Source of the DNA: Deltaproteobacteria bacterium | GTDB lineage: Bacteria > Myxococcota_A > UBA9160 > PR03 | DNA length: 64,000 bases | Direction: 5' to 3' | Assembly (NCBI GenBank): GCA_035063765.1 | Contig: JAPSFT010000013.1 | Span: forward strand, 62,001-126,000 | Part shown: piece by piece, positions 7,341-36,519 of the stretch | Layout: each line of letters begins with the position of its first letter | Position numbering within the stretch: position 1 is the first letter of the stretch | Program-made: the position numbers and the translations under genes | Notes under the pieces: model-generated | Databases searched by the model: none | The model's input: only the letters and a program-made list of their open reading frames with translations | What the model was told of the DNA's origin: nothing

Positions 7341-9290
7341 ATGGCAAGCCAGGAAGAGCTGCACGCCCGTTCGCTCGCGGATCCGGACGGCTTCTGGGCC
7401 GAGGCGGCGGCGGCGATCGAGTGGTTCCACCCCTTCGAACGGGTGCGCGACGACGCGCGCGCGCCCTTCGTGCGCTGGTTCCCGGGCGGCGTCACCAGCA
7501 CGTGCCACAACGCCCTCGACCGCCACGTGGCGGCCGGCCGTGGCGCGCAGCCCGCTCTGGTCTGGGACAGCGCGATGACCGGCGCCGTGCGGGTGCTCTC
7601 GTACGCGGAGCTGCTCGACGAGACCGCGCGCCTGGCGGGCGCGCTGGCCGGCCTCGGCGTGCACCGCGGCGACCGCGTGCTCGTCTACATGCCGATGGTG
7701 CCCGAGGCGGTGGTGGCGATGCTCGCCTGTGCCCGCCTCGGCGCGGTCCACTCGGTGGTGTTCGGCGGCTTCGCCGCGCGCGAGCTCGCCGCCCGCATCG
7801 ACGACGCGCGCCCGAAGCTCCTGCTGACGGCCTCGTGCGGGCTCGAGCCCTCGCGCACGCTCGCCTACGCGCCGCTCGTCGAGGGCGCGCTCGAGCGCGC
7901 CGCGTCTCCGCCCGCGCGCGTGGTGGTGCTGCAGCGCCCGGAGCTCCGCTGGCCGCTGCGCCCGGGCCGCGACCTCGACTGGCGCGAGCTCGTCGCCGGC
8001 GCGACACCGGCCGGCTGCGTCCCGGTCGCCGCCACCGACCCGCTCTACGTGCTCTACACGAGCGGCACCACGGGCAAGCCGAAGGGCGTCGTGCGCGACC
8101 ACGGGGGCCACGCCGTCGCGCTCGCCTGGAGCCTCCGCCACGTCTACGGCATGCGCCCGGGCGAGACCTTCTGGGCGGCGAGCGACGTCGGCTGGGTGGT
8201 CGGGCACTCCTACATCGTCTACGCGCCGCTCCTGCTCGGCTGCACCACGATCCTCTTCGAAGGCAAGCCCGTGGGCACCCCCGACGCCGGCGCCTTCTGG
8301 CGCGTCGCGGCCCAGCACGGCGTCGACACGCTCTTCGCCGCGCCGACGGCGATCCGCGCGATCAAGCGCGAGGACCCCGAGGGCGCCCGCGTCGACCGCG
8401 TGGCGCTGCCTCGGCTGCGGGCGCTCTTCCTCGCGGGCGAGCGCGCGGACCCCGACACGGTCGAGTGGGCGGGCCGGATCCTCGGCGTGCCGGTGATCGA
8501 CCACTGGTGGCAGACCGAGACGGGCTGGCCGGTCGCCGCGAACTGTCTCGGGCTCGCGCCGCTGCCCGTGAAGCCGGGCTCGCCGACCAAGCCCGTGCCC
8601 GGCTTCGACGTGCGCGTCCTCGACGACGCCGGCGCCGAGCTGCCGCCCGGCGCGGCCGGGCACATCGCGCTGCGCCTCCCGCTCCCGCCCGGATGCCTCC
8701 CGACGCTCTGGAACGACGACGACGGCTTCGTGCGCTCCTACCTCGAGCGCTTCCCGGGCCACTACGCCACCGGCGACGGCGGCTACTTCGACGCCGACGG
8801 CTACCTGTGGGTGATGGGCCGCACCGACGACGTGATCAACGTCGCCGGCCACCGGCTCTCGACCGGCGCGATGGAGGAGGTGCTGGCGCGCCATCCCGAC
8901 GTCGCGGAGTGCGCAGTGATCGGCGTCGCCGACGCGCTGAAGGGCCAGCTTCCGCTCGGGCTCGCGGTCCTGAAGGCGACGGCGCTCGGGCGTCCGCCGG
9001 CCGACGTCGAGCGCGAGCTCGTCGAGGCCGTGCGCCGGGAGATCGGGCCGGTGGCGTCGCTGCGCCAGGTGCTCGTGGTGCCGCGCCTGCCGAAGACGCG
9101 CTCCGGCAAGGTGCTGCGCGGCACCATGCGGCGGATCGCCGACGCCGGGCCCTGGAGCGCGCCCGCGACGATCGACGACCCGGCGGTGCTCGACGAGATC
9201 CGCGCCGCGCTGCACGGCGCCGGCTACGCTCGGGACGACGGCCCGCACGCGGACGCCGGCGGCCCTGCGGGTGATGCAACGCGTTCGTAA
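7341..9290 (+). CDS. Acyl-CoA synthetase, propionate--CoA ligase (PrpE/Acs) type
   Basis: This 649-aa AMP-forming ligase activates a short-chain acid such as propionate to its CoA ester through an acyl-adenylate. Visible motifs are the P-loop LYTSGTTGKPKGVVRDH, DHWWQTETGWP, the hinge GRTDDVINVAGHRLSTG and the C-terminal adenylation lysine in PKTRSGKVLRGTMR. The N-terminal ACAS domain (WFHPFERV...WFPGG) and length fit PrpE better than acetyl-CoA synthetase. The ATG at 7341 follows GGGAGGGG; a TACCCT box lies at 7312-7317. A short hairpin follows the gene. Confidence 0.85.
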   Translation: MASQEELHARSLADPDGFWAEAAAAIEWFHPFERVRDDARAPFVRWFPGGVTSTCHNALDRHVAAGRGAQPALVWDSAMTGAVRVLSYAELLDETARLAGALAGLGVHRGDRVLVYMPMVPEAVVAMLACARLGAVHSVVFGGFAARELAARIDDARPKLLLTASCGLEPSRTLAYAPLVEGALERAASPPARVVVLQRPELRWPLRPGRDLDWRELVAGATPAGCVPVAATDPLYVLYTSGTTGKPKGVVRDHGGHAVALAWSLRHVYGMRPGETFWAASDVGWVVGHSYIVYAPLLLGCTTILFEGKPVGTPDAGAFWRVAAQHGVDTLFAAPTAIRAIKREDPEGARVDRVALPRLRALFLAGERADPDTVEWAGRILGVPVIDHWWQTETGWPVAANCLGLAPLPVKPGSPTKPVPGFDVRVLDDAGAELPPGAAGHIALRLPLPPGCLPTLWNDDDGFVRSYLERFPGHYATGDGGYFDADGYLWVMGRTDDVINVAGHRLSTGAMEEVLARHPDVAECAVIGVADALKGQLPLGLAVLKATALGRPPADVERELVEAVRREIGPVASLRQVLVVPRLPKTRSGKVLRGTMRRIADAGPWSAPATIDDPAVLDEIRAALHGAGYARDDGPHADAGGPAGDATRS

Positions 9291-9337
9291 TCCCGCGCCT
9301 CGTCACGCCGCGAGCATCGGCGAAGCTCGGGTCGTGT

Positions 9338-9360
9338 CGGCTCGCGGGCTGCGCGAGCCG
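9338..9360 (+). terminator. 9-bp GC-rich hairpin after the acyl-CoA synthetase
   Basis: CGGCTCGCG (9338-9346) pairs perfectly with CGCGAGCCG (9352-9360) around a 5-nt loop. It lies between the acyl-CoA synthetase stop and the next start. There is no T-run, so it may be a weak terminator, an attenuating structure or chance in very GC-rich DNA. Confidence 0.3.
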
Positions 9361-9387
9361 TCGTCCCCGTGGCAGGGGAAGAGGATC

Positions 9388-10626
9388 ATGCCTTCCGACG
9401 CGAACCCCTCCGCGCCGCACGCCCCCTGGATCGCAGACCGGCTCGACGTGCGGGTCGCCCAGGGGCGCGTCGAGTCCGCCCAGCTCGCGGGGCTCGTCGA
9501 GGCGCTGGCGGCGCTCCACGCGGCTGCGGGCTGCACGCCCGTTCCCGCGTCCTCGCTCGCCGAGCGGGGCGCGCTCGCGCGCGCGAGCGTGGCGGAGCTG
9601 GCACCCTCGCTCGGCGCCGCGGCCGGGGCGTGCGAGCGGGCGCTGGAGGCCGCGGTCGAGGCCTCGGGCGCCGCGCTCGCCGCGCGCCGGGACGCCCCCC
9701 GCCGGCTCCACGGGCGGCTCGCCTGCGAGGAGATCCACGTCGATCCCGCCGGCCGCGCCGAGCTCGGAGCGCCCGCGAGGAGCGCGGCCGGCGATCCCTG
9801 CGAGGACGTGGCGACCCTCGCCCTCGAGCTCGCCGCGCGCGGCCGCGCCGATCTCGCTCTCCGGCTCGTCGGCGGCTACGCCGGACGGACCGGCGACTTC
9901 TCGCTCTACCGCGTGCTCGACGCGTACCTCGCCCTCGCCGGGCTCCTGGCGAGCCAGCGCGTCCTCGCTGCCGCCGCCGCGGGCGCTGATCCCGCGCGTG
10001 CCGCGGCAGCGCGCCTGCTCGCGGCGCCGGCCGAGCTCGCAGCCCCGGCGCGGGAGCCCTTCGTGGTCGCGGTCGCGGGCGGGATCGCGAGCGGGAAGAG
10101 CACGCTCGCCGCGCGCATCTCGGCCTCGTGCGGAGCCCCGGTCGCCTCCGCGGACGCCGCGCGCGCCGGGGGCCTCGCGGGCCTCGAGCCGGAGGCGCAG
10201 CAGGCGGCGTACGCCGAGATGCGACAGCGTGCCGCCGAGGTCCTGGCGTCGGGGCGCCCCGTCGTCGTCGACGCCTGCTTCGCGCGCCGCGTGCAGCGCG
10301 ACGCGCTGCGCTCGCTGGCCGGCGAGCGCGGTGCCAAGTTCCTCTTCGTGGAGTGCCGTGCCGACGCCGCGCTCACGCGCCGGCGTCTCGAGGAGCGCGC
10401 GCGCGGGCAGGGTCGCCCGGCGAGGGACTGGCTGGCGCTGCGCGAACGGCTGCTTGCGAGCTGGGAGCCGCTCCGGGAGCTGCCGCGCGAGCAGCATCTC
10501 GTCGTGGACACCTCGCGCGATCCGTCGCTCTGCCTGCCGCGGATCGAGCGCGCCCTCGGCCGCGGCGCGCCGGGGCCGCATCGGGTGCGCCATGATTTCC
10601 CCAAAAGGGCGATCCTTCACGCCTAG
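9388..10626 (+). CDS. Degenerate phosphotransferase-like domain fused to an AAA_33 P-loop kinase domain
   Basis: This is a 412-aa two-part protein. The C-terminal part (about 228-405) is a P-loop kinase-like domain with Walker A GGIASGKST (Lys237) and a lid-like RRRLEERARGQGRPARDW. The N-terminal part resembles the rear half of the COG2187 aminoglycoside-phosphotransferase family that is usually fused to such kinases: HGRLACEEIHV, DPCEDVATLALEL and the end YLALAGLLASQ align with the family's HGDLHxxNI, DxAxDxAFLxMDL and YRALVRAK blocks. The expected catalytic Asp is Arg110 and the N-lobe is shortened, so the first domain is probably inactive. The ATG at 9388 follows GGGGAAGAGG. The longer in-frame start at 9271 would overlap the upstream gene. 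Substrate unknown. Confidence 0.7.
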   Translation: MPSDANPSAPHAPWIADRLDVRVAQGRVESAQLAGLVEALAALHAAAGCTPVPASSLAERGALARASVAELAPSLGAAAGACERALEAAVEASGAALAARRDAPRRLHGRLACEEIHVDPAGRAELGAPARSAAGDPCEDVATLALELAARGRADLALRLVGGYAGRTGDFSLYRVLDAYLALAGLLASQRVLAAAAAGADPARAAAARLLAAPAELAAPAREPFVVAVAGGIASGKSTLAARISASCGAPVASADAARAGGLAGLEPEAQQAAYAEMRQRAAEVLASGRPVVVDACFARRVQRDALRSLAGERGAKFLFVECRADAALTRRRLEERARGQGRPARDWLALRERLLASWEPLRELPREQHLVVDTSRDPSLCLPRIERALGRGAPGPHRVRHDFPKRAILHA

Positions 10627-10700
10627 AAGGAATGGGGAGATCAAGACTCTGTCTTGATCTGGACAAAAGACGATCGAACAGGTAGAGTGCCCATTCCTTC
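10626..10700. repeat. Nested inverted repeats around the peroxiredoxin promoter
   Basis: The outer arms GAAGGAATGGG (10626-10636) and CCCATTCCTTC (10690-10700) are perfectly complementary (11 bp). Inside lies the perfect palindrome AGATCAAGAC-TCT-GTCTTGATCT (10638-10660). The AT content is far above that of the neighbourhood. The left outer arm begins in the last base of the upstream gene's stop codon. Confidence 0.75.
10638..10688 (+). promoter_or_regulatory. Promoter and palindromic operator of the peroxiredoxin operon
   Basis: TGGACA (10660-10665), a 17-nt spacer and TAGAGT (10683-10688) form a good sigma70-type promoter, the best in the window. The perfect 10-bp-arm palindrome 10638-10660 touches the upstream edge of the -35, centred about 46 nt before the likely start of transcription, a classic activator position (OxyR-like) but also compatible with a repressor. 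The 5' leader would be about 75 nt. Confidence 0.6.
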
Positions 10701-10769
10701 CACGTCGCTTCCGTGCGCACTGCGCCGGCGCCGGAAGCACGACCCCAACCGGCGCGAGGAGAACCCGGG

Positions 10770-11294
10770 ATGACCCTGGTCGGCAAGCCCACGCCCGATT
10801 GGACCGCCACCGCCTACCTGAAGGGCCAGGAGAAGCAGGTCTCGAGCAAGGACTACAAGGGCAAGTGGCACGTCCTCTACTGGTACCCGCTCGACTTCAC
10901 CTTCATCTGCCCCACCGAGATCAAGGGCTTCCAGTCCCTGCTCGAGGACTTCTCCGACGACAAGATCGCGGTGATCGGCGTCTCCACCGATTCGTTCTTC
11001 AGTCACAAGGCCTGGTTCGCCGACCGCAAGATCTTCCCGCAGGAGATCACGCACCCGGTGATCGCCGACACCAACCACGCGGTGTCGAAGGCGTTCGGCG
11101 TCCTCAAGGACGACCAGGGCATCGCCTATCGCGCGACGGTGATCGTCGACGACAAGGGCATCGTGCGCTCGGTCGTCGTGAACGACCTCTCCGCCGGCCG
11201 CAGCCCCGCCGAGGCGCTGCGCACGGTGCAGGCCCTCCAGAGCGGCGGGCTGTGCGGCGCCGACTGGAAGAAGGGCGACAGCTTCGCGGCATGA
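10770..11294 (+). CDS. ahpC: Peroxiredoxin, AhpC/typical 2-Cys type
   Basis: This 174-aa cytoplasmic peroxidase reduces hydrogen peroxide and organic or nitrogen peroxides. The peroxidatic Cys47 sits in DFTFICPTEI, and the resolving Cys162 in SGGLCGADW near the C-terminus. Catalytic-site Pro40 and Thr44 are also present. It is slightly shorter than E. coli AhpC (187 aa) and lacks a long C-terminal tail. The ATG at 10770 follows GCGAGGAGAA. Its TGA overlaps the ATG of the thioredoxin-like gene, so its reductant may be encoded by the coupled downstream gene rather than AhpF. A promoter with a palindromic operator lies upstream. Confidence 0.93.
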   Translation: MTLVGKPTPDWTATAYLKGQEKQVSSKDYKGKWHVLYWYPLDFTFICPTEIKGFQSLLEDFSDDKIAVIGVSTDSFFSHKAWFADRKIFPQEITHPVIADTNHAVSKAFGVLKDDQGIAYRATVIVDDKGIVRSVVVNDLSAGRSPAEALRTVQALQSGGLCGADWKKGDSFAA

Positions 11295-11641
11295 GCGAGC
11301 GGCTCGAAGCGATCGACGGATCGAGCTGGGAGGCCTTCGTCGCAGCTCCGGTCGCGGTGCTGATGATCGGCAAGAGCGACTGCCCGGCGTGCGCGAGCTG
11401 GACCGAGGAGCTGCAAGGCCTGCTGGCGGGCGACGAGCGCTGGCGCCACGTGCGCTTCGGCAAGGTGCTGCTGGACAAGCCGGGGCTCGTGTCCTTCAAG
11501 CGCGCGAACCCGTGGCTGGCGGAGCTCGACGAGCTGCCCTTCAACGTGATCTACGTGAACGGGGAGATCGTGAAGCGCTTCGCCGGCTCCGGGGTGGAGC
11601 GGCTCGTCGCGCGGCTCGAGCGGGCAGCGCCACCGGGCTGA
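11291..11641 (+). CDS. Thioredoxin-like protein with CPAC active site
   Basis: This is a 116-aa thioredoxin-fold protein with the redox pair Cys31-Cys34 in KSDCPACASW and a cis-Pro equivalent in DELPFNVIYVNGE. The active-site dipeptide PA differs from the GP of standard thioredoxin. It starts at ATG 11291 inside the ahpC stop (ATGA), so the two are made together; the natural inference is that it recycles the peroxiredoxin. No signal peptide is seen, so it acts in the cytoplasm. Confidence 0.85.
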   Translation: MSERLEAIDGSSWEAFVAAPVAVLMIGKSDCPACASWTEELQGLLAGDERWRHVRFGKVLLDKPGLVSFKRANPWLAELDELPFNVIYVNGEIVKRFAGSGVERLVARLERAAPPG

Positions 11642-36029: not shown

Positions 36030-36052
36030 AAGATGTGGCGATGATATATCTT
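36030..36052 (+). promoter_or_regulatory. NsrR-type 23-bp operator overlapping the -10
   Basis: The site is two 11-bp half sites around one central base: AAGATGTGGCG-A-TGATATATCTT. The left half and the reverse complement of the right half (AAGATATATCA) share AAGAT and agree in part with the E. coli NsrR half-site AAGATGCATTT. TATCTT (36047-36052) is a plausible -10 for the downstream rrf2/nsrR-like gene, so binding would block its own promoter and probably the divergent cupin-hemerythrin genes. Confidence 0.6.
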
Positions 36053-36084
36053 CGAGGCGGTCCGGCAAGTCAGGAAGTCCGCGC

Positions 36085-36519
36085 GTGCAGATGACCCGCT
36101 ACAGCGACTATTCGTTCCGCGTCCTGATCTACCTCGCGCTGGCACCGGGGCGCCTGGTGACGATCGCGGAGATCGCGCGGAGCTATCGGATCTCGAAGGC
36201 GCATCTCACCAAGGTCGTCCACCAGCTCGGGCGGAGTGGCTACGTCGAGACCGTCCGGGGCCGGGGCGGAGGGCTGCGGCTGGCGCGGCGGCCCGAGGAG
36301 ATCGGGGTCGGCGAGGTGGTGCGCGTGACCGAAGGCAGCCTGGCCCTCGTCGAGTGCTTCGAACCGGGCGGCGACTGCCCGATCATGTCCGCGTGCGGAC
36401 TGCAGCCGGTGCTGGACGAGGCGCTCGCCGCGTTCCTGGGCGTGCTCGACGGCTACACGCTGGAGGACCTGGTCGCGCGGCGGCGCGCGCCGCTCGCGCG
36501 GCTGCTGGAGGCTTCCTGA
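36085..36519 (+). CDS. Rrf2-family [Fe-S] regulator, NsrR-like
   Basis: This is a 144-aa winged-helix regulator. The N-terminus MQMTRYSDYSFRVLIYLA is typical of NsrR, including Asp8, a known cluster ligand in Streptomyces NsrR. The HTH is IAEIARSYRISKAHLTKVVH, and three Cys (91, 98, 104) lie in ECFEPGGDCPIMSACGL, the usual cluster-binding arrangement. It probably senses nitric oxide through an iron-sulfur cluster. GTG 36085 is preferred to ATG 36091 because it gives the family N-terminus and sits behind AGGAAG. An operator-like palindrome is centred 44 nt upstream of the start. Confidence 0.85.
   Translation: MQMTRYSDYSFRVLIYLALAPGRLVTIAEIARSYRISKAHLTKVVHQLGRSGYVETVRGRGGGLRLARRPEEIGVGEVVRVTEGSLALVECFEPGGDCPIMSACGLQPVLDEALAAFLGVLDGYTLEDLVARRRAPLARLLEAS

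Follow-up and report, generated by a model that had tools for sequence, protein, structure and literature searches.

The palindrome at positions 10638–10660 of the window, the whole stretch of 64,000 nucleotides that was analysed, very probably serves as a conserved operator for the peroxiredoxin operon behind it, and is most likely a putative peroxide switch of an ordinary kind that had not been described before. The initial annotation had taken it for the regulatory site of this operon, a reading borne out by dyads of the same pattern at all four peroxiredoxin promoters of the family, and had thought a peroxide-responsive switch likely; a peroxide-responsive regulator is indeed the best, still putative, candidate. 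The coordinates it had given for the palindrome, for an outer inverted repeat and for the promoter TGGACA-N17-TAGAGT proved exact, and the arms of both repeats are 100% complementary. The elements of the region are listed below by position in the window, which belongs to genome G000; G001 is from the same genus, G003 and G004 from a sister genus.

10626–10636, unstranded: left arm GAAGGAATGGG of the outer inverted repeat, starting on the final base of the stop codon upstream
10638–10660, unstranded: inner palindrome AGATCAAGAC-TCT-GTCTTGATCT, the proposed operator, conserved at the orthologous promoters of G001, G003 and G004 and present as a single genome copy
10656–10664, plus strand: GATCTGGAC, an instance of the (G/A)ATCTGGAC common to all four family promoters
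10660–10665, plus strand: predicted -35 hexamer TGGACA, by consensus match only
10683–10688, plus strand: predicted -10 hexamer TAGAGT at a spacer of 17, by consensus match only
10690–10700, unstranded: right arm CCCATTCCTTC of the outer inverted repeat, with no counterpart of comparable length and placement in the relatives and a window count close to that of shuffles
10770–11294, plus strand: 2-Cys peroxiredoxin of the AhpC/TSA family, 174 aa (Pfam PF00578, 2.6e-36; the nearest solved structures are typical 2-Cys peroxiredoxins)
11291–11641, plus strand: thioredoxin-like protein with a CPAC motif, 116 aa, joined to the peroxiredoxin stop by an ATGA overlap

The region of the repeats has a GC content of 48%, compared with 74.5% across the window. 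When the 143-nt intergenic region is shuffled with its dinucleotides kept, the P of obtaining a perfect palindrome with 10-bp arms is 0.0035, and that of an 11-bp inverted repeat without mismatch is 0.003. The whole window holds 16 perfect palindromes of the inner size (shuffles: mean 6.3, range 2–11) and 15 perfect 11-bp inverted repeats (shuffles: 7–13). Because the window counts of each class are sizeable, both repeats are unexceptional by length alone; length proves little and conservation therefore decides between them.

Orthologs of the peroxiredoxin occur in four of the six genomes of the family, namely G000 itself, G001 (88% identity), G004 (84%) and G003 (82%), while G002 (87% complete) and G005 (67% complete) contain distant homologs only. 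The promoter dyads of G000, G001, G004 and G003 read GATCAAGAC-TCT-GTCTTGATC, GATCGAGAC-CCG-GTCCCGATC, AATCTGGAC-GAT-GTCCAGATT and GATCTGGAC-TCC-GTCCAGGTC, respectively, that of G004 lying inside a perfect dyad with 14-bp arms. Their consensus ATCNNGAC-N3-GTCNNGAT, drawn from these four sites themselves, is matched at the four promoters with 0, 0, 0 and 1 mismatch, and the upstream regions of 28 more distant ahpC genes show 3–6 mismatches to it. A dyad with the core GAC-N3-GTC stands at the promoter of each of the four family orthologs and at none of the 28 distant copies. Since the consensus was derived from the sites on which it is tested, the G000 site was also used alone; it recovers those of G001 (P < 0.0005), G003 (P 0.0035) and G004 (P 0.042). 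The middle NN letters of the arms vary but mostly remain complementary, so that the two arms changed together. Searches with exact and degenerate motifs in the family, order and class gave no ahpC site outside the family among the matches listed. A chance palindrome without function would be little surprising by length, with 16 of this size in the window, but is very improbable in view of a core, spacing and promoter position kept in four genomes amid diverged flanks and absent from the 28 distant copies.

A pattern search of the whole G000 genome (4.4 Mb) with up to three mismatches returned the inner palindrome as the only copy, with no second intergenic one. A mobile repeat, which would have many unrelated copies, is rejected on the strength of this single copy, and the palindrome is present upstream of ahpC in the close relatives, where the initial annotation had advised looking for it. 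All other matches of the GATC form in G000 with at most one mismatch lie inside open reading frames. The ATCTGGAC form has a single match in this genome, with two mismatches and located 5' of a TetR gene; it was judged too weak.

The outer repeat was seen in G000 only: the dyads of the relatives lack a flanking counterpart of like length and placement. It is probably incidental, a product of chance with no necessary part in the mechanism, and its arms, previously proposed as a second site or a cruciform, lack conservation and require no functional explanation. The nested repeats might act as structure, either as a cruciform or as an RNA hairpin (attenuator or terminator) in transcripts that read through from the gene upstream. 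Compared with shuffles, the RNA of 10620–10769 does fold better (z -2.69), in a structure that pairs both repeats, and the arms of the inner palindrome co-vary. However, the outer repeat lacks conservation, the predicted transcription start is downstream of the inner dyad, no T tract follows the repeats on the plus strand (the sole terminator-like site is weak and on the opposite strand), and no Rfam match appeared up to E = 1, all of which makes a structural role most improbable. An intrinsic terminator or RNA element was rejected for want of a plus-strand stem-loop with a T run and of an Rfam match to E = 1. Conservation of the letters ATC and GAC implies recognition of the sequence. The upstream gene (9271–10626) encodes a C-terminal AAA_33 kinase domain; since the upstream genes of G001 and G003 end similarly, the palindrome stands immediately or shortly 3' of this gene.

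The motif TGGACA-N17-TAGAGT (10660–10688) is the sole promoter-like match within 3 kb (shuffle mean 0.0), and transcription is predicted to start near 10695. The first T of TGGACA is the final base of the inner palindrome. In the genus of G000, ATCTGGAC provides the -35 element and overlaps the GATC of the palindrome's right arm; the dyad of the sister genus has it as its left arm. Assuming -35 elements of the form TGGAC(A/G/T), spacers of 16–17 and start sites placed by prediction, the dyad is centred at about -46/-45 in G000/G001, where it abuts the -35 element, and at about -29/-28 in G004/G003. Because the dyad of the sister genus spans the -35 element and the spacer, a repressor fits better than an activator, and we regard a repressor site as the probable reading. 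The site might instead be bound by an activator, for example OxyR or a different protein of the LysR or CRP type, activation being the role preferred by the initial annotation; the centre near -46 in G000/G001, with the -35 element adjacent, is indeed a usual activator position. In G003/G004, though, the dyad covers ground where only MerR-type activators bind, an OxyR ortholog is present in G003 only, and a T-N11-A LysR core is lacking, the positions +6/-6 from the centre having A and T, in the opposite order to T...A. Activation is thus improbable and less likely than repression.

The two arrangements share the half-site and differ in the side on which the dyad is completed, upstream of ATCTGGAC in one genus (centre about -46) and downstream in the sister genus (about -28). 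Tentatively, and with considerable doubt, this may be read as an operator with a single target, in which the half-site ATCTGGAC also serves as the -35 element and which shifted by about 17 bp around this fixed half-site, its arms changing in step. If true, the shifted operator would be a clear case of an operator and regulator specificity co-evolving and would possibly mark a PerR branch with a new DNA specificity. Such a displacement relative to the -35 element would offer a small natural example of operator movement in bacteria.

The earlier description of the operon as an ahpC-thioredoxin pair holds for the peroxiredoxin by its PF00578 domain, although this protein scores below the NCBIfam AhpC cut-off; the thioredoxin assignment goes back to the CPAC motif and the size of the protein, with no family model behind it. 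The 116-aa CPAC protein gave no sequence match in Pfam, NCBIfam or PDB. A comparable CxxC gene stands 3' of the peroxiredoxin in relatives (L024, L054 and L140); G001 shows this order. Perhaps the CPAC protein is a dedicated reductant from an undescribed family. The neighbours of the operon look metabolic, and no regulator was recognised near it among the ORFs inspected by eye in the window, G001, G003 and G004.

The survey of regulators comprised OxyR, Fur and Rrf2 proteins. Among the four genomes with the motif, an ortholog-level match to OxyR was found in G003 only, below the curated cut-off. An OxyR site was rejected, given that the ortholog was found in just one of the four genomes with the site. 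Every one of the four encodes two members of the Fur family, one of them a Fur-type protein. In G000 the second protein (G000:C8:161715-162149) aligns best with PerR of B. subtilis (2fe3) and retains all five sensor-metal ligands (His, Asp, His, His, Asp); the orthologs aligned from G001, G003 and G069 keep these as well. The residues correspond to H37, D85, H91, H93 and D104 of B. subtilis PerR, from which numbering and roles are taken; in the other Fur protein, D85 is replaced by Glu. In G004, an ortholog of the PerR-like protein was identified at 68%. Among the 80 genomes of the order, PerR-like orthologs of at least 61% occur in G000, G001, G003, G004 and G069 only. G069 possesses this ortholog and lacks the orthologous peroxiredoxin; the 15 of its 23 motif matches that were examined all lie in long reading frames. 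The co-occurrence of the PerR-like gene and the motif, seen in a sample of only four genomes with the motif, is suggestive and could be due to simple common descent. The PerR-like gene is unlinked to ahpC, and no copy of the motif was present at this gene or at the other Fur and Rrf2 genes. PerR regulons usually comprise several members; the pattern search of G000 returned no other target of the motif.

In the proposed mechanism, a dimeric Fur-family repressor of the PerR/FurA type would control the peroxiredoxin/thioredoxin-like operon via the inner palindrome. Loaded with metal, it would sit on ATCNNGAC-N3-GTCNNGAT, at the edge of the -35 element in the genus of G000 or, in the sister genus, on the -35 element together with the spacer, and would thereby exclude RNA polymerase. 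Peroxide would then oxidise the metal site, the protein would leave the DNA and the peroxidase would be made. We give this whole mechanism, with the PerR-like protein as the leading candidate regulator, an even chance. The site with its conservation and two positions, the PerR-like protein (four genomes), its ligands (three genomes) and the likeness to published boxes were computed; that the PerR-like protein binds this site, represses the operon and responds to peroxide as its signal is what we infer from sequence.

Alternatively, the palindrome could be the binding site of a repressor that belongs to a different family (TetR, MarR, ArsR, Rrf2 or similar) and has the peroxiredoxin operon as its main target. 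Long perfect dyads such as the 14-bp arms of G004 suit TetR- or MarR-type dimers, and the single genome target and the low absolute score relative to PerR sites agree with such a protein. Yet no regulator was recognised beside the operon in G000, G001, G003 or G004, the Rrf2 genes carry different upstream dyads, and the resemblance to PerR/FurA boxes exceeds that of permuted controls; we consider this alternative rather unlikely. An Rrf2/IscR site was rejected, as the dyads upstream of Rrf2 genes differ (GAC-N7-GTC at the SUF regulator versus GAC-N3-GTC at ahpC). Independently of ahpC, each of the four family genomes has a GGAC-N7-GTCC dyad with the spacing of IscR type-1 sites upstream of its SUF-type Rrf2 gene (L110, L111, L112 and L113). 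A long A+T-rich dyad GATAAAAAGA...TCTTTTTATC, likely autoregulatory, lies 5' of an Rrf2-family gene in both genomes of the G000 genus (L120 and L116; G000:C9 and G001:C63). The window itself encodes an NsrR-like Rrf2-family regulator (about 36050–36477, plus strand) with AAGATGTGGCGATGATATATCTT immediately 5', which resembles an NsrR site.

The favoured PerR-like candidate can be compared with published operators. The 19-bp core of the site is symmetrical about one base, odd-centred like the boxes of the Fur family, and is located at the -35 element in all four genomes. In the Deltaproteobacteria studied previously, OxyR is missing and the predicted PerR operators vary by branch; the predicted site at ahpC of D. 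vulgaris is cACAGGAATGATTCCTGTT at -116 (PMC545781). With a symmetrised matrix from seven published (predicted) Desulfovibrio PerR sites (PMC545781), positions 10640–10658 rank first among all 19-mers of the 64-kb window (shuffle P 0.002) and the runner-up falls within the same A+T-rich promoter. Over the four orthologous sites, just 1.8% of column-permuted matrices equalled the real one, but the score of 12.4 is far under that of the known Desulfovibrio sites (27–33). In mycobacteria, boxes of the forms TCTGGAAT-N-ATTCCAGA and TCTTGACT-N-ATTCCAGA are described, and the FurA-box-like repeat IR2 of M. smegmatis ahpC reads TCTGGAAT-C-ATTCCAGA; deletion of IR2 derepresses ahpC, the binding of FurA to it being itself inferred in that study (PMC4218801). 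FurA of M. avium ssp. paratuberculosis is a repressor of ahpCD whose effect is lifted by peroxide (PMC4319475). The sites of G003 and G004 share 12 of 16 letters with IR2 (P 0.000 and 0.005 from 1000 shuffles) and 12 of 16 with the furA box (P 0.002 and 0.011), scores rarely equalled by permuted half-sites, and those of G000 and G001 reach 9–10 of 16 with IR2 and the FurA box, which is not significant alone. As a separate observation, a distant ahpC (L056, 71% identity) carries TTTGGATTCATTCCAAA 36–20 nt before its start, with 13 of 16 letters in common with IR2 (P 0.0005 before allowing for 28 promoters). The palindrome and the PerR-like protein would make up an operator-regulator pair, open to experiment, in the peroxide defence of an uncultured deltaproteobacterial lineage with OxyR found in one of four genomes, and they link the published deltaproteobacterial PerR sites to the actinobacterial FurA box at ahpC.

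Among the known systems, the OxyR sites of Proteobacteria at ahpC serve the same kind of target gene, but differ from the present case in dyad geometry, in the repressor-like position seen in the sister genus and in the ortholog being found in one of the four genomes. PerR of B. subtilis is the protein with which the candidate regulator aligns best and shares its five ligands, whereas its box (consensus TTATAATNATTATAA, quoted in PMC545781) is quite unlike the inner palindrome. The earlier remark that the palindrome is not an obvious OxyR or PerR consensus hence stands for the B. subtilis box; it falls short for the deltaproteobacterial PerR and mycobacterial FurA sites, which the palindrome matches in geometry and in some letters. 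IR2 of M. smegmatis is likewise an odd-centred dyad in an ahpC promoter, and TCTGGA-N5-TCCAGA occurs exactly in the G004 site; IR2 lies downstream of the transcription start, in contrast to a position at or upstream of -35 here, and the mycobacterial FurA box comes from a phylum other than that of the G000 lineage. The Desulfovibrio PerR sites have an A+T-rich centre in place of GAC-N3-GTC, but share with the inner palindrome the form of a 19-bp odd-centred dyad upstream of ahpC, centred here 121 nt before the ATG.
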